Source: a virus. From it: a stretch of 20,332 nt of DNA. This document shows, one piece after another, positions 4,002 to 14,634 of the stretch; the first letter of the stretch is position 1, and each line of letters begins with the position of its first letter. Where the stretch lies: positions 1 through 20,332 of IMG/VR virus record IMGVR_UViG_3300034280_000041. One strand, written 5' to 3'. The position numbers and the translations under genes were made by a program. The notes beneath the pieces were generated by a model. That model was not told the origin of the DNA and searched no databases. It saw only the letters and a list, made by a program, of their open reading frames with translations.

Positions 4002-6254
4002 ATGGCAGCGGCTGAGCAGAAGAAGTCCTACGCTGTCATCAAGAACTTCCTTGGTATCAACACCAAGGCTAACCGCACTGCGATTGACGAAAAAGAGTTC
4101 TCGTGGATTGAGAACGCCATGCCCATCGGGTTTGGCAACATCAAGATCGTCCCGGCCCAGAAGCACACGGTTGACAGCACCAGCAACAACGTGGTGTTTG
4201 GCAACACGGTCACGCACATCACTTCTGCCAACATTGACCTCAATGACTACATTCTGGTCTTCAGCGCAAACGGTGCATCTCAATTCTTTGACCTGACGAG
4301 CGACACTAAGGGAAACGTAGCGACTTCTGGCACGTTCTCGGGCGGTGACATCAACACTGCTCAGTACAAGAATGAGCGCGTCATCATTGCCGACCCTGAG
4401 CGCGGTCTGTACAACTGGAATGGCACTAGTCTCGTTAGCGGCAACTCTGTTGGCTTTATAGGCATCACAAACCCAGGCGCAGGCTACACGCAGGCACCCG
4501 TAGTCACGATCTCTGCACCCAACGAAGCCAACGGCGTACAGGCTCTGGCAGAGGCCACGATCACCACCGCAGCCGGTGGCGTGCGTGCCATCACGGTAGA
4601 CACGCCTGGTAGCGGCTACAGCTCTGTCCCATTGGTTACGATCTCTGCGCCTGATGTCCCAGGCAGCATCACGGCCAGAGCAACGGCTGCGCTTGCCAGC
4701 GGCAACGTGGTGTCCGTGACGATTACAGAGACGGGCAGCGGCTACATCAAGACGCCTAGTGTGACGATTACAGGCGGTGGCGGCACGAGCGCCAACGCAG
4801 TCGCAACGATCAGCACCGGCCAAGTCACGAGCATTTTCCTAACAGAAGCAGGCTCTGGTTACACCTCACCTCCTACGGTCACCATCGAAGCTGCTCCGTC
4901 AGGCGGGGCCAATGCCACGGCAATCTCGCAGCTGACCACGTTCAAGAAGGGTACTGTTTCCGTCATCGTCACCAACGGAGGCAGCGGCTACAGCAACGCA
5001 GCCAACGTGGTGGTGACCATCGGCAACGCTACCGGCTACACCACACAGGCCAACGCCACTGCCATCATCAGCGGCAACACGGTCAACCAAATCATCATGA
5101 CCAATCCGGGGGCAGGCTACACCGCCACCTCCAACGTGGTGGTCACGATTACAGGCGGTGGTGGCAGTAACGCAGCAGCCAAGGCTATCGTCAATACTGA
5201 CGATGTGCAGGATGTGGCGACTTTCGGTGGCCGTGTATGGGTGGCATCAGGGAGAACCCTGTACTACTCGGCTGCAGACAGTGCAACTGATTTCACTTCT
5301 GTCTCCGCAGGTTCGCTCACGCTAAGCGACTCCACCCTGCGCGGAAACATCAAGGCTATCGTTTCTGCCAACAACTTTTTGTACATCTTTGGCGAAACAA
5401 GCATCAACATTATTTCTGACCTGCGGGTGACTCCAGAAGGCACCACGCTGTTCACAAACACCAACGTCAGTGCCAGTATTGGCACAGGTCGTACAGACGC
5501 CATCTTCCCGTACTTCCGCAGCTTGCTGTTCATGAACGACTACGGGATGTACGCCCTAGTCGGCTCTACCACCAGCAAGCTATCAGACTCGCTAGACGGC
5601 ATCTTTCCGAACATCGACTTCTCCATGCCGATTACGGGTGGGCAAGTCCTGGTCAATAACATCCTGTGCGCGGCGTTTAACTTCACATACAACGATCCAA
5701 CCACGACCACACCGACACCAAGGCAAGTTCAGGCCGTCTTTTTTGACAAAAAGTGGTTTATTACGAGCCAGGGCAGCATCGACTTTGTGGCATCTGTGCC
5801 AGTAGAGGGCACGATTCGCCTCTATGGCGTGGACAATGTGGACTTGTACGAGCTGTACGGGAACAGTACGGGAGCCATCAACAGCACCATCAGGACTGCC
5901 CTGATGCCGTTGGGCGACCCTATCCGCACAAAACAGGCTCTGAAGTTTGGCATTGAAGCCACGCTGGTGCAGAGCGCAACACTGAATGTCACGGTTGACA
6001 GTGAAACTGGCTCTAGTCCTGTGTACACGCTGCAGAACGGCAACGTGACATGGATCAACAACCAGAATCAGGTTATTCCTTGGATCAACAACTCTAGCCA
6101 AACAATCAACTGGCTACTGTCTTCCGGGTATTTCCTTTACAAGTCAGATGCCCAACAATACGGGAAGTATTTGGGCCTGACTCTGACCAGCAACGCTGCT
6201 GCGTTCACTGTCAACACCTTCGAAATGGAACATGAACTTAGAGTGAGGTTCTGA
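4002..6254 (+). CDS. Tail hub / DNA-stabilising tail protein (P22 gp10-like) with repeat insertion
   Basis: This 750-residue protein follows the adaptor by three bases. Residues 1-150 start with KSYAVIKNFLGINTKANRTA and FSWIENAMPIGFGNIKIVP, a pattern I associate with beta-propeller-like tail hub proteins of short-tailed phages (P22 gp10 and similar packaged-DNA stabilisation proteins). Hub features resume after residue 402: VATFGGRVWVASGRTLYYSA, IKAIVSANNFLYIFGETSIN and a DAIFPYFRSLLFMNDYGMYAL segment. The C-terminal part (about 600-750) is beta-rich and ends EMEHELRVRF. Residues 152-402 are an insertion of six repeats, listed separately. The hub closes the portal channel after packaging and carries fibres. 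No good ribosome site precedes the ATG, so translation is probably coupled to the adaptor gene. The hub call is moderate; the repeat insertion is directly visible. Confidence 0.65.
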   Translation: MAAAEQKKSYAVIKNFLGINTKANRTAIDEKEFSWIENAMPIGFGNIKIVPAQKHTVDSTSNNVVFGNTVTHITSANIDLNDYILVFSANGASQFFDLTSDTKGNVATSGTFSGGDINTAQYKNERVIIADPERGLYNWNGTSLVSGNSVGFIGITNPGAGYTQAPVVTISAPNEANGVQALAEATITTAAGGVRAITVDTPGSGYSSVPLVTISAPDVPGSITARATAALASGNVVSVTITETGSGYIKTPSVTITGGGGTSANAVATISTGQVTSIFLTEAGSGYTSPPTVTIEAAPSGGANATAISQLTTFKKGTVSVIVTNGGSGYSNAANVVVTIGNATGYTTQANATAIISGNTVNQIIMTNPGAGYTATSNVVVTITGGGGSNAAAKAIVNTDDVQDVATFGGRVWVASGRTLYYSAADSATDFTSVSAGSLTLSDSTLRGNIKAIVSANNFLYIFGETSINIISDLRVTPEGTTLFTNTNVSASIGTGRTDAIFPYFRSLLFMNDYGMYALVGSTTSKLSDSLDGIFPNIDFSMPITGGQVLVNNILCAAFNFTYNDPTTTTPTPRQVQAVFFDKKWFITSQGSIDFVASVPVEGTIRLYGVDNVDLYELYGNSTGAINSTIRTALMPLGDPIRTKQALKFGIEATLVQSATLNVTVDSETGSSPVYTLQNGNVTWINNQNQVIPWINNSSQTINWLLSSGYFLYKSDAQQYGKYLGLTLTSNAAAFTVNTFEMEHELRVRF
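4455..5207 (+). repeat. Six tandem ~40-residue GxGY beta repeats within the tail hub gene
   Basis: Residues 152-402 of the hub protein contain six units. Each has the form hydrophobic strand, (N/T/E/G)-(P/T/A/G)-G-(A/S)-G-Y, then a PxVTI-like strand, then an Ala-rich stretch ending in a turn and a short strand. Key segments are GAGYTQAPVVTI, GSGYSSVPLVTI, GSGYIKTPSVTI, GSGYTSPPTVTI, GSGYSNAANVVVTI and GAGYTATSNVVVTI. Units 3 and 6 also share an almost identical stretch encoding VTITGGGG. Units differ in many other positions, so the array is not recent. Confidence 0.85.
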
Positions 6255-6255
6255 T

Positions 6256-7005
6256 ATGGCCGTCCCAAACACATTTGCTGGCGCTACTGCAGCGATTCCG
6301 CTTGCTCAGCTAGACCAAAACTTTGCCACCACGATCACGCTGGGCAACACCGCCATTCAGTTGGGCAATACGGTCAGTACGCTCAACAACATGACGTTGG
6401 CAAACGTCACCATCAATAGCGTCTCTACTCCGATCACAGCTGACCAAGGCGGTACTGGCCTTGTCAGCATCACCGCAAACGGGGTGATGGTCGGCAACGG
6501 CACAGGTTCCATCACGACAGTCAGTCCCGGAACCAACGGCAACGTGTTGACGAGCAACGGCACCGTTTGGGTTAGCCAAGCGCCTGCAGCAGCTACCGGC
6601 AACGTTACTCTTGGCAACACAACCATCAGTCTTGGTGGCACTGCAAGCAACGTCGGCAACCTGACGCTTATCAACACGACGGTGACCAACTATACGGAAA
6701 CACCGTTTACTGCTAACTCCAGTACCGCCATCACGATTGCGTTGACCAACGGCACGTTTCAGATCATTACGCTTACCGGCAATGCCACGATCACGATGCC
6801 TACTGCCACCAGCGGAAAGTCTTTCATCTTGCTGTTGAAGCAAGACGGGACTGGCAGCAGGACAGTAACATGGTCAACGGTCAGATGGCCTGGCAATACT
6901 GCGCCAACCATTACCAGTACCGCTAGCAGGCAGGACATCTATTCCTTCTTTGCAGACGGAACTAACTGGTACGGCACCACCGTTGGTCAGAACTACACGG
7001 TGTGA
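6256..7005 (+). CDS. Tail fibre or virion appendage protein
   Basis: The 249-residue protein begins MAVPNTFAGATAAIPLAQLD, an N-terminus I associate with virion-attached fibre proteins of many uncultured phages. Next come two copies of a 25-residue repeat (see repeat entries) flanking a middle with ADQGGTGLVSITANGVMVG and GNGNVLTSNGTVW-like segments, a motif type common in trimeric tail fibres. Residues about 149-249 look like a small beta-sandwich end domain: SSTAITIALTNGTFQIITLTG, SGKSFILLLKQDGTGSRTVT, RWPGNTAPTITSTA and a final DGTNWYGTTVGQNY. The start lies one base after the hub stop, with GAGG at 6245-6248. It is the first gene of the fibre module, so it may link the hub to the larger fibre proteins. 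Receptor binding is not shown. Confidence 0.6.
   Translation: MAVPNTFAGATAAIPLAQLDQNFATTITLGNTAIQLGNTVSTLNNMTLANVTINSVSTPITADQGGTGLVSITANGVMVGNGTGSITTVSPGTNGNVLTSNGTVWVSQAPAAATGNVTLGNTTISLGGTASNVGNLTLINTTVTNYTETPFTANSSTAITIALTNGTFQIITLTGNATITMPTATSGKSFILLLKQDGTGSRTVTWSTVRWPGNTAPTITSTASRQDIYSFFADGTNWYGTTVGQNYTV
6340..6414 (+). repeat. First copy of a 25-residue fibre repeat
   Basis: It begins LGNTAIQLGNT and ends TLANVTI. The second copy lies at 6610-6684 in the same frame; by eye 14 of 25 residues are identical (LGNT, I, L, G, T, S, N, TL, N, T). Confidence 0.7.
6610..6684 (+). repeat. Second copy of the 25-residue fibre repeat
   Basis: It begins LGNTTISLGGT and ends TLINTTV. It matches the copy at 6340-6414 in length without gaps. 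Both copies are exactly 75 bases and are separated by the GGTG-containing middle segment. Confidence 0.7.
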
Positions 7006-7013
7006 GGTAAGCA

Positions 7014-8954
7014 ATGTTTAGTGCTGCAGGAAAAACAGCCGCTGTAGCCACAGCAGCCAACTACATCGAGGACGTGTTCTCGACGTGGCTCTACACCGGG
7101 CAAGGAACTGCTTCATCACAGACCATTACTAATGGGATTGATCTGTCCACGAAGGGCGGAATGGTTTGGTTGAAGAACCGGGATGTCGCTTACAACAACA
7201 ACATTTTTGATACAAACCGGGGCGCTACAAAGAGAGTTTTTACAAATACCACAGGCGCAGAACTGACCACCGCAGGGAGCCTTACGTCGTTCAATTCTGA
7301 TGGTTTTACGATCGGTACTGTTGATTCCGGTTTTAGTGGCAGCGGAGAAAAAATCGCCTCCTGGACATTCCGCAAGCAGCCGAAGTTCTTTGATGTGGTG
7401 ACGTATACGGGGAATGGAACTGCGGGTAGAACCATTTCACACAATCTTGGTTCTGTGCCGGGCTGCATTATTATCAAAAAAACCTCCGATACAGAAAACT
7501 GGGGCGTGTATCACAGATCGCTTGGAAATACTCAATCTCTTGCCTTAAATCTTACTAATGCAGCAGGAGCAGGTTTTTGGAATAGCACTACTCCGACAAG
7601 CACAGTATTTACGGTTGGCAATCAGGGACAGGTAAATGATAACGGACAAACCTACGTCGCCTACCTCTTCGCCCACGACGCAGGAGGCTTTGGCCTGACG
7701 GGTACGGACAATGTGATTTCGTGTGGGTCGTTTACGGTAGACGGGTCAGGCAATTCGTCTATCAACCTTGGGTATGAGCCGCAGTGGCTGCTGATGAAGC
7801 AGACCAACACCACTGGCAGTTGGTTGATGCAAGACACGATGCGAGGCCAAACTGCTGACAACGGCTACGCAAGACTGCTTGCGGACACTTCCGGCGCGGA
7901 GACTTCAACCACGACCGGCTTCATTCGCATCAACGCCACAGGGTTCTCAACGAACGGCGCAACCGGCTTAGTTGGTGACCACATCTACATCGCCATCCGT
8001 CGCGGCCCGATGAAAACCCCGACGACGGGGACGAGTGTATTTAATCCTGTTACTTATACGGGTCTAAGTGCAGCACAAACAATATCTTGCGGTAATTTGC
8101 CTGACTTCCTTCTCGTGCGTCGAAACATAGCGTGTGATAACAATGTTTACACGAGGCTTACGGGTAGGAATAGACAATTATATACAAATTTAACTTTGCG
8201 AGAAATTGATCAAACTACCAACTATGGAGTTACAGCATTCCTAAATACCTCTTGGAGTTTCGGGTTAAATGCTAACAACGAAAACCTAAACGGCGAAGCA
8301 TCAATTGGACTGTCATTTAGCCGCGCCCCCGGCTTCTTTGATGTGGTTTGCTATACGGGGAATGGGGCGCAGACGGCGAGAAACCACAATCTCGGTGTCG
8401 TGCCGGAACTGATGCTGCTGAAGCGTAGAAGTACGGGTGGCGGCGATTGGGATGTGTCAACGTCATTTGGTGCGTCAACCTACAGCAGAAGCGCGTTGCC
8501 ATATACGAATGCGTTTACAACTTTAAGTTACGGCACAGGAGTTACATACGGAGCAGCGCCAACTGCAACTACATTCACAACATCTCAAGACGCCGGATAT
8601 AACGAATCTGGGGCAACATTTGTTGCCTACCTGTTTGCCTCCTGCCCCGGTGTTAGCAAAGTCGGCACATACACCGGCAGCGGTACGACCAAGCAGATCG
8701 ACTGCGGCTTCACTGGTGGCGCTCGGTTTGTGCTCATCAAGCGTACGGATGACACGGGTGACTGGTACTTCTGGGACAGCGCACGAGGTATTGTTAGCGG
8801 TAACGATCCCTACCTTCTCTTAAACAGCGACGCTTCTCAAGTAACCAACACCGACTATGTGGACACATACAGCGCCGGGTTTGAGATCAGCAGCACCGCG
8901 CCTGCGGCCATTAATGCCAACGGGGGAACCTTCGTGTTCCTTGCGGTGGCGTAG
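7014..8954 (+). CDS. Large tail fibre / receptor-binding-like protein made of six ~100-residue repeats
   Basis: This protein has 646 residues and opens with a short Ala-rich segment (AAGKTAAVATAANYIEDVFS), probably a virion attachment region. The rest divides into six units of about 100 residues. Each carries YTGxG or a variant, an Ile-containing strand, Gly then Pro or Gly, a strand like LLxK(R/K), usually a Trp and (D/H)xxRG, then near the end a GF strand and a final strand such as TYVAYLF or KIASWTF. FFDVVTYTGNG at residue 125 recurs as FFDVVCYTGNG at 441. This is the build of phage tail proteins with beta-sandwich (lectin-like) repeats; I recall similar proteins in phages of aquatic bacteria. 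Base composition alternates sharply along the gene. Binding to surface sugars is inference. A tail assembly chaperone-like gene follows immediately, as is usual for receptor-binding fibres. Confidence 0.65.
   Translation: MFSAAGKTAAVATAANYIEDVFSTWLYTGQGTASSQTITNGIDLSTKGGMVWLKNRDVAYNNNIFDTNRGATKRVFTNTTGAELTTAGSLTSFNSDGFTIGTVDSGFSGSGEKIASWTFRKQPKFFDVVTYTGNGTAGRTISHNLGSVPGCIIIKKTSDTENWGVYHRSLGNTQSLALNLTNAAGAGFWNSTTPTSTVFTVGNQGQVNDNGQTYVAYLFAHDAGGFGLTGTDNVISCGSFTVDGSGNSSINLGYEPQWLLMKQTNTTGSWLMQDTMRGQTADNGYARLLADTSGAETSTTTGFIRINATGFSTNGATGLVGDHIYIAIRRGPMKTPTTGTSVFNPVTYTGLSAAQTISCGNLPDFLLVRRNIACDNNVYTRLTGRNRQLYTNLTLREIDQTTNYGVTAFLNTSWSFGLNANNENLNGEASIGLSFSRAPGFFDVVCYTGNGAQTARNHNLGVVPELMLLKRRSTGGGDWDVSTSFGASTYSRSALPYTNAFTTLSYGTGVTYGAAPTATTFTTSQDAGYNESGATFVAYLFASCPGVSKVGTYTGSGTTKQIDCGFTGGARFVLIKRTDDTGDWYFWDSARGIVSGNDPYLLLNSDASQVTNTDYVDTYSAGFEISSTAPAAINANGGTFVFLAVA
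7086..8951 (+). repeat. Six tandem ~100-residue beta-domain repeats in the tail fibre gene
   Basis: Units start near residues 26 (LYTGQG), 128 (VTYTGNG), 234 (ISCGSFTVDGSG), 342 (VTYTGLS), 444 (VCYTGNG) and 550 (GTYTGSG), a spacing of 99-108 residues. Matching positions include MVWLKN, CIIIKK, WLLMKQ, FLLVRR, LMLLKR and FVLIKR for one strand, and KIASWTF, TYVAYLF, HIYIAI, SIGLSF, TFVAYLF and TFVFLAV for the last strand. Between these anchors the units differ greatly in sequence. Confidence 0.8.
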
Positions 8955-8969
8955 ACATAAGGAGCAATC

Positions 8970-9473
8970 ATGCTTATTCGGATGAGAAATGACGGAACAC
9001 TGGTGACTCACGGTGAGTTCCGTGCCATGTTCCCTAACACCAGTTTTCCTCCGCAGCTCACAGAGGGCATCATCAATGATTTTGGTGGTGATGTCGTGTT
9101 TGAGGGGCCGCAGGCAACTGGAGGCACTGTCTACCAGTACAGCGTCTACTCTGGTGTTGAGCAAGCTGCAGACGGAAAGTGGTACACCAAGTATTCGCTA
9201 GGGCCGACGTTCTTCGACACCACGGACGAGAACGGTGTGGTGACGACTGCTGCTCAACACGAAGCAGAGTACAAGGCTCGCAAGGATGCAGAACACGCCA
9301 AGTCTGTGCGTGAGCAACGCAGTCAAAAGCTCAAAGAAAGCGATTGGACGCAACTGTCTGATGCTCCTGTAGATAAGGCCGTTTGGGCAACCTATCGTCA
9401 GGCATTGCGCGACATCACGACTCAGGCTGGTTTTCCCTGGAACGTGACATGGCCTGACGCGCCGGGAGCATAA
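8970..9473 (+). CDS. Phage tail (fibre) assembly chaperone-like protein
   Basis: The protein has 167 residues. The N-terminal 70 begin MLIRMRNDGTLVTHGEFRAM and hold a FRAMFPNTSFP segment. The C-terminal 60 residues carry the signature I associate with the phage tail assembly chaperone family (Phage_tail_APC in Pfam): an RSQKLKESDWTQLSDAP helix and turn, then KAVWATYRQALRDIT, then GFPWNVTWPDAP. Between them is a charged helix (EAEYKARKDAEHAKSVREQR). Proteins of this kind follow fibre genes and help fibres fold or attach. Here it directly follows the six-repeat fibre gene, which supports that partner. ATAAGGAG at 8957-8964 is a strong ribosome site, five bases before the ATG. The sequence shows no signal peptide, so it probably acts in the cytoplasm during assembly. 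Confidence 0.75.
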   Translation: MLIRMRNDGTLVTHGEFRAMFPNTSFPPQLTEGIINDFGGDVVFEGPQATGGTVYQYSVYSGVEQAADGKWYTKYSLGPTFFDTTDENGVVTTAAQHEAEYKARKDAEHAKSVREQRSQKLKESDWTQLSDAPVDKAVWATYRQALRDITTQAGFPWNVTWPDAPGA

Positions 9474-9816: not shown

Positions 9817-10506
9817 ATGCTCAAGACAGTACAGACAGGCACTGGTGGCGGCGGTGGCAGCGGTACTGTCACGCAGGTCGACACAGGTACGGGCCTCACT
9901 GGAGGCCCAATTACCACCACGGGTACCGTTGCGCTTGCCAACACCGCAGTCACCGCTGGCAGCTACGGCGCTGCTGACAAGGTTGGCCAGTTCACGGTAG
10001 ACCAACAAGGACGACTGACAAATGCGGCGAATGTGGCCATCAACATTGCCGTTGCCAATGTGGCTGGTGCTGTCGCTAACACGGTCAATGTGTTGGCTGG
10101 TACTGGTCTGTCTGGTGGTGGCGCTCTAACGGGCAACGTCACCATTAACCTTGCCAACACAGCTGTTGTCGCAGGTTCTTATGGCGACTCTGGCAACGTC
10201 TCGCAGATCACGGTTGACGCACAAGGCCGCATTACTTCTGCAGCTAACGTAGCTATTGCGCTAGCAAACACCACGGTGGTGGCCGGTTCCTATGGCAGCT
10301 CTAGCAATGTTGCGTCCTTCACCGTAGACGCGCAAGGAAGGCTTACAGCCGCATCCAACGTGACTATCGTGGCGTCAAGTGTGAACCTGACAAACACATC
10401 TGCCAACGCTACCTTTGCTACCGACAGTCTGCCGCTTGTGCCGGAAGGCTACGTGACGGTGCTCATCAACGGTGCGTTCAAGAAGATTCCGTACTACGGC
10501 GTATGA
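9817..10506 (+). CDS. Tail fibre protein with three 36-residue repeats
   Basis: The 229-residue protein has a glycine-rich linker at residues 8-16, a GTGLTGGPITTTGTVALANT segment that recurs later as GTGLSGGGALTGNVTINLAN, and three copies of a 36-residue unit of the form LANTxVxAGSYGxxxxVxxF/ITVDxQGR(L/I)Txxx(N)VxI. Repeats with TVDAQGRLT are typical of trimeric phage tail fibres. The last 25 residues (LPLVPEGYVTVLINGAFKKI, then PYYGV) form a small end motif. GAGG at 9807-9810, overlapping the upstream TGA, serves as the ribosome site. The 3' end overlaps the next gene by four bases. It is a second fibre-like gene in the module, separate from the six-repeat protein, so the virion may carry more than one kind of appendage, or this may be a connecting rod. 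Confidence 0.6.
   Translation: MLKTVQTGTGGGGGSGTVTQVDTGTGLTGGPITTTGTVALANTAVTAGSYGAADKVGQFTVDQQGRLTNAANVAINIAVANVAGAVANTVNVLAGTGLSGGGALTGNVTINLANTAVVAGSYGDSGNVSQITVDAQGRITSAANVAIALANTTVVAGSYGSSSNVASFTVDAQGRLTAASNVTIVASSVNLTNTSANATFATDSLPLVPEGYVTVLINGAFKKIPYYGV
9934..10041 (+). repeat. Fibre repeat, copy 1 (36 residues)
   Basis: The unit begins LANTAVTAGSYG and contains FTVDQQGRLT, ending NVAI. It is exactly 108 bases long, like the other two copies at 10150-10257 and 10261-10368. Confidence 0.8.
10150..10257 (+). repeat. Fibre repeat, copy 2 (36 residues)
   Basis: The unit begins LANTAVVAGSYG and contains ITVDAQGRIT, ending NVAI. A 108-base spacer of different sequence separates it from copy 1; one codon separates it from copy 3. 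Confidence 0.8.
10261..10368 (+). repeat. Fibre repeat, copy 3 (36 residues)
   Basis: The unit begins LANTTVVAGSYG and contains FTVDAQGRLT, ending NVTI. It lies one codon after copy 2, and synonymous codons differ between the copies. Confidence 0.8.
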
Positions 10507-10842: not shown

Positions 10843-13800
10843 ATGGCGACGGAAGAACAGACATCCGATCAAGGCGTCTACTACGACGGCGACTTAGGCT
10901 ATTTCACGAGCGCAAATGCAGAGCGCAAGATTGCTCAATTGCGTGCCAAGTACCCTGACTGGGAAATCACGCCCATCTTCACGGAAGTCATTGACCGTGA
11001 AGGCCAGGTTAGCTATGCAGAGCCAATCAAATCTTTTCAAATCAGAAAAGGCATTGAGGGTGGTCTGCTTGACATTCGCTTGCTTGACCCAGAAGGTAAC
11101 GAGACTTACCGCGAGGTAGAACGGCAACAAAGTTTCTTGCAAAGCCCAGTCGTGGGCATCCTTGCTTCTGCTGTTGTTCCCGGACTTGGCGAATTCTTTG
11201 CTGCTCAACTGGCTGCAGCTGGTGCGATTACAGGTGCTGCATCTACAGCAGTGGGTAATGCGCTTGCCAAGATTGCTGTGGATGTTGCTACCGGCAAAGA
11301 CTTGGGGGATGCGGTACGAGATGTGGCGCTATCTACAGCCATCTCTACAGCCATTCCCAACATTGGGCCGTCTATCTCTGAGTTGGTAGACGATCCCAAC
11401 ATTGCAAGAATCCTGACAAACGCAGGCAATGCCGCAGTCTCGGCAGCAGTACAGGGCAAGAGTGGCAGTGAGATTCTGACTTCTGCAGTGGCTGCTGGCG
11501 CTGGTACGGCTGCATCTTTTGAAGGTGGAGCTACTGCAGGCCGTGCAGTCCAGAGTCTGATTGCCAGCGGTGGTGATCCGATGGCAGCTTTGACCGCTGT
11601 AGGTGGCGAGCTTGCAGCGCGTGGTGGCCAAGCGGTTGCACAAAACATTGCCAACGAAGGTATCAGCAGACTTCCAAGCACTCCTGATACCGGCACACGA
11701 GTAGCTACTGGGCCTGCTTTCCCAGAAACCAGAACTACGGTCACGACCACGGGTGGTGAAGAAGGTGGTGGTGGTACTGGCGGTGGAACAGCAGGCGGTC
11801 AAGGTGGGGAAGCTGCTGTTGATCCCAACAGTCAAGAAGTGTTAATTGCTCAGCAGTTCTTGCCTAGAGGCGTGCGAGTCTTCACTTTCAACCAGCTAGA
11901 AGCTGTGCGGGTGTTGTCGCAAGCCAATCCTGCGCTTTTGGCTGGTTTGAGCCAAGAAATTCTTAACGAAGCAGCTGGCTTCATTCAGAACAATCTAGAA
12001 GCAGAGCTTGCGCAGCGAGCTGCCAACACATCGCCTGGGTTTGGCTTTGGAGGCTTTACTCCTCGCGCAGCTAATGTTTTTACCGTTGAGAATCTGCCTG
12101 AAAACTTAGGGAACGTCTTTGAATCCGGTGGTGCCGTTTACTTCCAAGAAGGCGGCAAAACCTACCGTGTTGCATCTCAAGATGAGCTAGCAGGCAATCT
12201 TGGCGAGATAACAATTCATTTCGACGACAAAGGGCGTGGCATTTACGCCAAGGAAGTGTTTGGCGTTACCGGCAGGTTCATGACGGACGCTGAAAAGCAA
12301 GCAGGACTTCAGCAACAGTTTGTCACGGAAGCATCTGAGCAGATCGACCCAGAGACTGGTCAGCCCATGCTTCTGACGCCAGGAACTGGTGGAAACATTG
12401 GCGCAAACAATGTCTTCAGGGCAGGCGCTGCTGCCGGTGCCAAGGGTGTAGGTGAGCAGCTTGGCTATATAGCTACCGTCACTGGCAACCAGAATCTTGC
12501 CAATGTTGCTGCCAGTCTTCAAAGTTATGGCCGTGGCGCGACTAGCGAAGCTGTACGACTGGGCCAAAACCAAATCATTCAAGACATCAACAATGCCAGC
12601 GGTTTGTTAGGCAAGGGTGTTGCAACACTTACGTCTGCTGCTCGCAATCCGGCAGCAGTCATTGATTGGGCAATTGGCGAAGGGGTGCAAGAGATTGCTC
12701 CTCTTTTGGCCGGTGTTGGCATAGGCCGACTTGTTACTGCTGCGACAAAAGCACGTCTTGGTCAGCAGATTGCAGACAAGTACGGTGTGGCAAGTGCGGT
12801 TACAACCAACGCTACGTTAGATGCTGGTGAGTCTGCGGTTGCTACTTACCAAAATGTGCAGCAGGCGCTTATCAACAGAGGCTTTAGCGAAGAGCGTGCG
12901 TCTGCTATCGCGTTGCCTGCGGCACTTGCTTCTGGTTTCATCACGCTAGTCACCACAGCGGTTGGTGAATCTGAACTGGTTGCTGCTGCTACCCGTGGCA
13001 TTCCAGGCCGCACAACACGATCTATAGCCACAGAAACACCTTCAGAGTTTGCGGAAGGTTTTGGACAAGGCGTGGTGGAAGCTGTTGCCATCACCAATCG
13101 TTTGCCATCTCTGGATGATGCGTTGACTCAAGGCTATCTTGAGGCATTGATTGGTGGTTCTACGACTGGTGGCATTACTGCAGGGCAGTCCGTCATTGCT
13201 GGGCAAGGTGCAGAAACAACAGCTGGGACTGCAGCGGGTACAGGTGCAGCGGCAACAACAGGAACTGGTGCGGCGGCAACCACCGCAACTGGTACGGGCG
13301 CAGCCGCGACGACTGGTGCTGCAGCCACGCAGAACGCTGGTGTTGTGATTGCAGTTAGCGGAAACAATGCACTGGTCATCGACAACAACGGTGTGGTTTC
13401 GGTGGTTGGCAATGCTGCCAACACCAATGCTGGTAATGTGGTCACGCTAGATGCCAGTGGTGCAAATATCACTGGCAACACGGGTCAAACCAACACCAAT
13501 CTGACCAACAGTGGGTTGACCAACAACACGCTGACCGTCTCGCAAAACACAGCGAACTCCATCAACGGAGCGGTCAACAACCTTGCGGGCACTGGACTTG
13601 TCACTAACAGCGATGTGGCAAGCGGTGCTGCCGCTACCGCTGTGGTGCAGTTGGCTGCTAGCACCGGCACCAACATCAATACTGTCGCAAATGTCACTAG
13701 CAATGTGGCAAACACGGTCAATACCGCTGCAGCAACAACGGGTGGAACTGCAACTCAAGGCGTTGTGTTGGCCACAAATAACACCAATAACACGGCGTTG

Positions 13801-14634
13801 GTTGCAAATACAAATGGCAATACGCAAATCGTCAACACCAATGGCGCTGTCAATGTTGGCGCTACCGTTAACCTCAACACCAATACGGTGACGGGAACGA
13901 CCACCGCAACTGCGGTTACCGGCACGCCTGCATCTACCGCGACAACCACGACTGGTACTGCCGCAACCACTGGCACGACTGCTACTACTGGCACCGCAGC
14001 GACAACAGGAACTGCTACCACTACTGGCACGGCACCTACGACGGGTACTACACCTACCACTACGACTACGGCTGCCACAACGCCTACAACCACGGCAACG
14101 ACTACTACAACGCCCACAACGACGACAACTCCGACGACGACAACTACGCCGGAGACGACTCCGACCACAACTCCAGAGACGACTCCGACTACAACGCCGA
14201 CGACTACTCCTACAACCACACCGACCACAACTCCTACTACCACTCCGACAACGACGCCCACTACGACGCCTGTTGCAACGCCGGACAGAGAGCAGGATTT
14301 GATTTCTCAGTTGCTGCGGTTGATTGAGTTGGACAACTTGCGTGGTGTGCCTGAACTGCAAATAGAAGAAGAAACCGGGCCTACTACTGAGGCTCCACCA
14401 GAAGGTGGTGGAAAAGGTGAGCAGGCAGGCCGTGTAACTCGTCTAGGCATTTCTCCAAGCTCGACATTGACGGTTGGCCGTGGTCAGGGCATTCGTGGAA
14501 TAACTCAGACCGGGTTACAAGAGTCGTTGACATCATTCAGGCCAGCGGGTGAAATTCGCGCTGGGACGGGCAAGCCTCGCCGTAATGTGTGGAATGAGGC
14601 TTCTTTGCGGCTAAAAGACGCATTAGGACTGTGA
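10843..14634 (+). CDS. Giant virion protein, candidate internal/ejection protein with Thr-rich low-complexity tract
   Basis: The 1263-residue product is the largest in the window. Residues 1-95 are charged and globular (YYDGDLGYFTSANAERKIAQ). Residues 101-150 are Ala/Gly-rich and hydrophobic (SPVVGILASAVVPGLGEFFA), and further hydrophobic stretches occur near residues 605-625 and 685-710 (IALPAALASGFITLVTTAVG). Between them lie a Gly-rich hinge near 305-325 and mixed helical regions. Residues 787-1146 are low complexity. The last 115 residues are more ordered, with a REQDLISQLLRLIELDNL helix and a basic end (GKPRRNVWNEASLRLKDAL). Large proteins with membrane-active segments, next to other Ala/Gln-rich proteins, fit the internal virion or ejection proteins of short-tailed phages. 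No lysozyme or transglycosylase motif was seen. An alternative is an exposed stalk protein, since Pro-Thr tracts can form extended spacers. The ATG lies one base after the preceding stop. Confidence 0.55.
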   Translation: MATEEQTSDQGVYYDGDLGYFTSANAERKIAQLRAKYPDWEITPIFTEVIDREGQVSYAEPIKSFQIRKGIEGGLLDIRLLDPEGNETYREVERQQSFLQSPVVGILASAVVPGLGEFFAAQLAAAGAITGAASTAVGNALAKIAVDVATGKDLGDAVRDVALSTAISTAIPNIGPSISELVDDPNIARILTNAGNAAVSAAVQGKSGSEILTSAVAAGAGTAASFEGGATAGRAVQSLIASGGDPMAALTAVGGELAARGGQAVAQNIANEGISRLPSTPDTGTRVATGPAFPETRTTVTTTGGEEGGGGTGGGTAGGQGGEAAVDPNSQEVLIAQQFLPRGVRVFTFNQLEAVRVLSQANPALLAGLSQEILNEAAGFIQNNLEAELAQRAANTSPGFGFGGFTPRAANVFTVENLPENLGNVFESGGAVYFQEGGKTYRVASQDELAGNLGEITIHFDDKGRGIYAKEVFGVTGRFMTDAEKQAGLQQQFVTEASEQIDPETGQPMLLTPGTGGNIGANNVFRAGAAAGAKGVGEQLGYIATVTGNQNLANVAASLQSYGRGATSEAVRLGQNQIIQDINNASGLLGKGVATLTSAARNPAAVIDWAIGEGVQEIAPLLAGVGIGRLVTAATKARLGQQIADKYGVASAVTTNATLDAGESAVATYQNVQQALINRGFSEERASAIALPAALASGFITLVTTAVGESELVAAATRGIPGRTTRSIATETPSEFAEGFGQGVVEAVAITNRLPSLDDALTQGYLEALIGGSTTGGITAGQSVIAGQGAETTAGTAAGTGAAATTGTGAAATTATGTGAAATTGAAATQNAGVVIAVSGNNALVIDNNGVVSVVGNAANTNAGNVVTLDASGANITGNTGQTNTNLTNSGLTNNTLTVSQNTANSINGAVNNLAGTGLVTNSDVASGAAATAVVQLAASTGTNINTVANVTSNVANTVNTAAATTGGTATQGVVLATNNTNNTALVANTNGNTQIVNTNGAVNVGATVNLNTNTVTGTTTATAVTGTPASTATTTTGTAATTGTTATTGTAATTGTATTTGTAPTTGTTPTTTTTAATTPTTTATTTTTPTTTTTPTTTTTPETTPTTTPETTPTTTPTTTPTTTPTTTPTTTPTTTPTTTPVATPDREQDLISQLLRLIELDNLRGVPELQIEEETGPTTEAPPEGGGKGEQAGRVTRLGISPSSTLTVGRGQGIRGITQTGLQESLTSFRPAGEIRAGTGKPRRNVWNEASLRLKDALGL
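13201..14280 (+). repeat. Low-complexity Ala/Thr/Asn then Pro-Thr tract inside the giant virion gene
   Basis: Residues 787-1146 pass through three zones. The first (13201-13335) is Ala/Thr/Gly with TGAAATTG-type units. The second (about 13336-13905) is rich in Asn, Thr and Val, with NTN and ANTVNT motifs. The third (about 13906-14280) is mainly Thr, Ala, Gly and then Pro. The tract keeps an open frame for about 1080 bases, and codons for Thr vary. Confidence 0.85.
14161..14280 (+). repeat. Ten tetrapeptide units of PTTT type
   Basis: Reading from 14161 the units are PTTT, PETT, seven more PTTT and a final PVAT, each 12 bases. They follow two looser six-residue PTTTTT units and one PETT unit. 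Thr is encoded by acg, act, aca and acc in mixed order, so units match in protein but not exactly in DNA. Confidence 0.85.

Follow-up and report, generated by a model that had tools for sequence, protein, structure and literature searches.

A protein of two DUF7483 triplets as candidate receptor-binding adhesin of a podovirus tail fibre

The six-unit gene and its neighbours

The window analysed here is a virus record of 20,332 bases (IMGVR_UViG_3300034280_000041), which was read on the level of sequence and predicted structure. It encodes a podovirus-type major capsid protein (NF033394, E = 1.6e-44) and an SU10-type adaptor. The gene under study, for which we propose a function as distal tail-fibre adhesin, is an ORF with an ATG start on the plus strand (7014–8954) that encodes 646 amino acids; the stretch from 7086 to 8951 described in a first-pass annotation corresponds to residues 25–646 of this larger ORF. 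In a Pfam search with an E-value limit of 0.1, DUF7483 (PF24299) was the sole family retrieved and no lectin family was found. The match extends over most of the Pfam model in two stretches, with E = 8.7e-91 and a total score of 304.9 bits, compared to a gathering cut-off of 27 bits, and the separate halves of the protein score 178.9 and 140.2 bits. The PHROG matches 19943 and 24898 are filed under virion structural or tail fiber proteins. Ahead of the first repeat unit lies an N-terminal tail of about 19 residues (7014–7070, plus strand) with low pLDDT in its first residues, which runs into the motif YIEDVF. Among 71 relatives, E19 is invariant and I18 and F22 are nearly so, and in CRP-603 gp52 a comparable N-terminal motif, NVEDVF, is located ahead of a LamG-like region. 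A role of this tail as attachment peptide is possible.

The flanking genes support the first-pass description of the product as a tail protein. Directly upstream, a beta-rich fibre protein of 249 amino acids is encoded on the same strand (6256–7005; PHROG 9017, tail fiber, E = 3e-9), and downstream follows a Tfa-like tail-fibre assembly chaperone of 167 amino acids (8970–9473, plus strand) with a C-terminal PF16778 domain (E = 1.7e-20) and matches to the tail fiber assembly PHROGs 4912 and 8746. This arrangement is widespread among relatives: in 76 of 80 close relatives, and likewise in each of four six-unit isolates examined, the chaperone gene directly follows the six-unit gene. Within the sensitivity of tblastn, none of 63 distant loci, which mostly encode three-unit proteins, has it beside the DUF7483 gene. 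The C-terminal domain of the 249-residue fibre protein recurs in the fibre genes that lie ahead of the six-unit genes of the Roseobacter phages CRP-1, CRP-4, CRP-9 and CRP-13, and half of the 64 separate occurrences of this connector domain (32) immediately precede a DUF7483 gene. A gene fusion joining the upstream fibre to the adhesin was considered for CRP-603 and rejected, since no match to the connector fibres was found in the first 260 residues of its protein.

Further virion-like proteins are encoded on either side. In a large tube-like protein (4002–6254), several GSGYT..P.VTI repeats have matches to numerous families of phage baseplate, fibre and head-closure proteins (PHROG 5342, 460 and others), and 3' of the chaperone gene a repetitive virion-like protein (9817–10506) contains repeats of the type NTAVTAGSYG..NVxxFTVDAQGRLTxAxNV. 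A protein of 1263 amino acids (10843–14634) with a long Thr/Ala/Pro-rich low-complexity stretch had no match in PHROGs or NCBIfam and is possibly an internal or ejection protein.

The initial description of six divergent repeats along the protein is confirmed by profile comparison. Unit boundaries were cut on an alignment of 71 sequences and gave units of 100–112 residues, all encoded on the plus strand: unit 1 (residues 20–123, 7071–7382), unit 2 (residues 124–226, 7383–7691), unit 3 (residues 227–338, 7692–8027), unit 4 (residues 339–439, 8028–8330), unit 5 (residues 440–546, 8331–8651) and unit 6 (residues 547–646, 8652–8951), which forms the C-terminus. With hhalign, all 15 pairs of unit profiles were significant (E = 5.6e-8 to 8.1e-42, probability 94.7–100%), compared to a probability of at most 2.1% for controls with reversed columns. 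Even in plain BLASTP the two halves of the protein align with 32% identity (E = 4e-35). A unit HMM, which is supporting evidence only as it was trained on these same units, detects exactly six of them, each with E ≤ 4e-17. The anchor motifs recur as described: YTG is found in five units at residues 27, 131, 348, 447 and 553, with a degenerate SFT at 239 in the remaining one, and a closing strand was located in all six units (SWTFR 116, VAYLF 215, IAIRR 326, GLSFS 432, VAYLF 537, FLAVA 642). The AlphaFold2 model of the whole protein (pLDDT 86.7, pTM 0.84) contains six similar beta domains in which a similar strand order recurs, and unit 2 modelled alone reached a pLDDT of 92.2 and a pTM of 0.86. 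Neither a fold that fails to repeat nor a lack of significant profile self-alignment, which would both have spoken against a repeat protein, was found.

Organisation in triplets and the fold of the units

The six units are not a chain of equal repeats, as units group by their position within a triplet and are counted in threes; they represent two copies of the three-unit module DUF7483, with units 1–3 forming triplet A and units 4–6 forming triplet B. The first-pass picture of a chain of six thus holds with respect to six similar beta domains at a spacing of about 100–112 residues, but not with respect to their equivalence. The strongest pairs of unit profiles are 1–4, 2–5 and 3–6. When 311 units taken from three-, six- and nine-unit proteins were compared, the nearest unit in another protein shared the triplet position in 299 cases. 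In a tree, near-complete splits were obtained for position 2 (102 of 104 units) and position 3 (101 of 103), with a support of 0.92 for position 3 and of only 0.036 for position 2, which makes the nearest-neighbour count the firmer evidence. Among 130 relatives dereplicated at 90% identity, 126 have three (n = 43), six (n = 80) or nine (n = 3) units, indicating that the triplet is the building block; the four exceptions comprise two proteins in which unit 4 apparently escaped detection, a fragment of 123 amino acids, and L153 with two units. The motif FFDVV, which had been noted as obvious in only two copies, is present in units 2 and 5 and in no other unit because it marks the units at position 2. 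Judged from these sequence relationships, the three-unit module probably arose first and was later duplicated as a whole.

Structure comparison points in the same direction. A triplet-sized stretch superposes on another predicted viral protein over 315 columns with an rmsd of 2.4 Å, suggesting that the triplet acts as a rigid body, at least in the prediction. A chain of six lectin domains that act independently and bind sugar at a separate site each, as initially envisaged, would be in line with the autonomy of the beta units, since a region of 105 columns also aligns to a free-standing viral protein of 110 amino acids (TM 0.79, rmsd 1.9). However, the strict multiples of three and the grouping by position speak for the triplet rather than the single unit as the functional object, three-unit modules superpose as rigid bodies, and a lectin fold is absent from the PDB matches listed, so that we regard six separate lectins as very unlikely. 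In three relatives (L101 ORF at 311, L134 ORF at 2757 and L138 ORF at 1900), about 130–250 extra residues appear to be inserted between the first and second units of a triplet, which seems to tolerate insertions at this joint.

The description of the units as lectin-like sandwiches found no support, since no lectin family was matched in Pfam and no solved lectin at a TM of about 0.5 or better was among the PDB matches listed. The many binding faces envisaged for such a chain are likewise hypothetical. PDB sequence searches with the 646-residue protein gave no match. In Foldseek searches against the PDB, no match with TM ≥ 0.5 was among those listed for the whole protein (best TM 0.11–0.14), and the best listed matches of a single unit had TMq values of 0.39–0.40 at E ≥ 0.13, the best of them with E = 0.13 and TMq 0.39; the matches were sorted by E-value, and higher TM values are possible further down. 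We did not assign the units to a lectin or jelly-roll fold on the basis of the matches to plant lectin 4mq0, capsid proteins and the R2 pyocin fibre 6cl6, which had TM values of 0.05–0.40 at low probability. Since none of the listed PDB structures is similar to the unit, they offer no template from which to deduce a sugar site.

The same searches bear on a possible enzymatic function. Distal beta-rich fibre proteins of podoviruses are often depolymerases, and adjoining fibre genes in some relatives are annotated as hyaluronidase or endo-N-acetylneuraminidase, so one or more units might cleave surface polysaccharide in the manner of a tailspike. We consider this extremely unlikely for the six-unit protein, because no enzyme family was matched, a depolymerase fold is absent from the top structural matches, and no conserved acidic cluster common to the six units was seen, the invariant residues being mostly glycine, aromatic or structural.

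Uneven conservation and replacement among relatives

Unit-specific divergence, which had been suspected in the first-pass annotation, is strong and resides mostly in unit 4; that the last unit is the most conserved had not been anticipated. Mean entropies of units 1 to 6 were 1.57, 1.24, 1.55, 2.32, 1.68 and 0.58 bits across the 71 relatives, which are the best matches to the window protein, so that the absolute values may be biased, although the order of the units is also seen within pairs: of 2346 pairs, 2177 had their lowest conservation in unit 4 and 2180 their highest in unit 6. Identity at fourfold-degenerate sites averaged 0.35–0.47 and every unit was about equally saturated, indicating that selection at the protein level keeps unit 6 conserved. 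For the same reason, gene conversion or recent DNA exchange was rejected as explanation for its conservation. In a small set of twelve distant six-unit proteins the gradient is weaker but points the same way (0.26 for unit 4 and 0.45 for unit 6), whereas three-unit relatives lack such a gradient (0.36, 0.35 and 0.40). Taken overall, loops did not hold a significantly larger part of the variation than strands (P = 0.11). The pattern runs opposite to that of typical variable regions in targets of diversity-generating retroelements, in that the C-terminal unit is the most conserved. No direct repeats longer than 32 nt were found between positions 6000 and 11000 of the 20 kb record, which is probably only part of the genome. 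Variation of unit 4 could also reflect relaxed constraint instead of selection for new binding.

Presence or absence of the gene behind conserved flanks was seen solely in two pairs of isolates, CRP-4/CRP-5 and CRP-1/CRP-2. CRP-4 and CRP-5 infect different strains (PMC6918029, Table 1). In these sister cobaviruses, the flanking genes and TerL (78% identity) are conserved and a stretch of about 46 amino acids encoded by the CRP-4 fibre gene is 67% identical to the beginning of CRP-5 gp54, while CRP-5 has no counterpart of the DUF7483 and chaperone genes of CRP-4. CRP-1 and CRP-2, which share a host, exhibit the same difference behind conserved flanks. From gene order and sequence, the pattern in CRP-4 and CRP-5 is best read as exchange of a distal fibre module behind a fixed anchor, in relatives of the window phage and not in the window phage itself. 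We do not claim free movement among unrelated phages, as the flanks of close relatives form one upstream and eight downstream similarity groups under single linkage.

These observations also bear on the question whether the DUF7483 units might merely form a rigid fibre shaft or decoration while another protein binds the receptor. PHROG 19943 files one relative under virion structural / head and packaging, other domains such as LamG and SPRY in some relatives could take over binding, and the strict unit order is scaffold-like. Such a spacer function appears rather unlikely, considering that the gene is located in a fibre operon just 5' of a Tfa-like chaperone, that adhesin and chaperone are replaced together between sister phages behind a conserved anchor, and that divergence is strongly unit-specific.

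No unit-level host signal emerged among isolates of known host, a point against the adhesin reading. When four phages of strain FZCC0023 were compared with CRP-603 and others, no unit had extra similarity by host; identities in unit 4 were 0.30–0.47 among the four FZCC0023 phages and 0.31–0.38 against CRP-603, which has another host. The DUF7483 gene is present in four of five published FZCC0023 phages and in none of four phages of other RCA strains (one-sided Fisher test calculated by hand, P = 0.04, for phages that are not independent). CRP-2 infects FZCC0023 (PMC6918029, Table 1) and is devoid of a DUF7483 gene, which counts against the adhesin reading. Two further FZCC0023 records match the chaperone and are absent among the DUF7483 matches listed. 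Given these records and the non-independence of the phages, gene presence was not relied on as a host marker.

Additional gene arrangements were observed at other loci. At L006, L041, L055, L056, L062 and L070, the DUF7483 gene is adjoined by another one, either complete or partial, and two different adhesins thus appear to be encoded side by side in some phages. A contig binned as Euryarchaeota NP73 (L166:21-7199) contains four consecutive DUF7483 ORFs (6, 3, 3 and 6 units), three of which end in the connector domain of the window's upstream fibre gene, which suggests a multi-segment fibre. At L164, L165, L167 and L170, binned as Candidatus Gracilibacteria PL25b_bin.48, the DUF7483 genes are broken only by 2–10 in-frame TGA codons per gene, and six units are obtained in each when TGA is read as glycine; these loci look like phages or prophages that use genetic code 25.

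A proposed distal adhesin and its relatives

Taken as a whole, the six-unit protein probably forms the distal tip of a podovirus tail fibre and acts there as receptor-binding adhesin, a reading to which we assign a probability of about 0.7. The polypeptide is made up of two head-to-tail copies of a three-domain module, and its beta domains of about 100 residues each share a common fold. In the proposed mechanism, the 249-residue fibre protein encoded before it may join the adhesin to the virion, and the following chaperone would fold or register the adhesin, presumably by docking on or near the almost invariant last unit. Contact with the host might be made mainly by the fast-evolving unit 4 together with the variable loops of units 1 and 3. 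The ligand would be located at the cell surface and is probably a glycan. A carbohydrate ligand is suggested by the co-occurrence of DUF7483 with Laminin_G_3 and SPRY domains within single polypeptides and by the richness of marine phage islands in carbohydrate-binding and fibre proteins (PMC3909814). A comparable pairing is known from the myocyanophage Pam3, in which the fibre gp24 is paired with the two-domain chaperone gp25 that has a conserved C-terminal part (PMC9608196). In Pam3, the N-terminal beta-sandwich of the chaperone binds the distal part of the fibre and the conserved C-terminal part drives trimerisation (PMC9608196). The distal domains of the Pam3 fibre, however, are TNF-like and glycine-rich, and PDB sequence and fold searches revealed no similarity to DUF7483.

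The multiples of three raise the idea of a built-in pseudo-threefold head. Under this more tentative proposal, which we consider possible but doubtful, DUF7483 would be a receptor-binding module in which three homologous domains with an unsolved beta fold form a pseudo-threefold head, proteins with six or nine units would stack two or three such heads, and a frozen C-terminal unit linked to the chaperone would free unit 4 to set the host range.

The window protein is a member of a family that is known but functionally blank. Pfam describes DUF7483 as a domain of unknown function of 330 amino acids, of which the window protein contains two tandem matches, and models the whole triplet as one domain, whereas the three-unit interior and the counts of three, six and nine emerge from the present analysis. 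A counterpart in layout, A0A6J5QL19 from an uncultured Caudovirales phage (663 amino acids, DUF7483), has the same six units (TM 0.91/0.89, 49% identity) in a structure that is likewise predicted, and no function is assigned to it. The six-unit proteins of CRP-1, CRP-4, CRP-9 and CRP-13, with a fibre gene before and a chaperone gene after them, are 38–44% identical to the window protein and annotated as hypothetical, and the hosts of these phages are known from cultivation. Pelagibacter phage HTVC011P gp37 and a virion protein of cyanophage SS120-1 contain a single triplet; no such chaperone was found nearby, and three-unit relatives as a group are without the conservation gradient. In the literature searched, we found no paper naming DUF7483, and as far as this search extends, the organisation in threes and the pattern of frozen and fast-evolving units have not been described.

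Phages that infect SAR11, Prochlorococcus, Synechococcus, Roseobacter and Vibrio encode DUF7483 proteins, most of which are labelled hypothetical; several of these hosts are among the most abundant in the sea. Should the PDB indeed lack the fold of the unit, a single crystal or cryo-EM structure would add a new fold. The comparison of CRP-4 with CRP-5 offers a cultivated model for the putative DUF7483 adhesin. With its triplet build, its frozen and fast units and its linkage to a chaperone, an anonymous family becomes a testable candidate for a receptor-binding protein.
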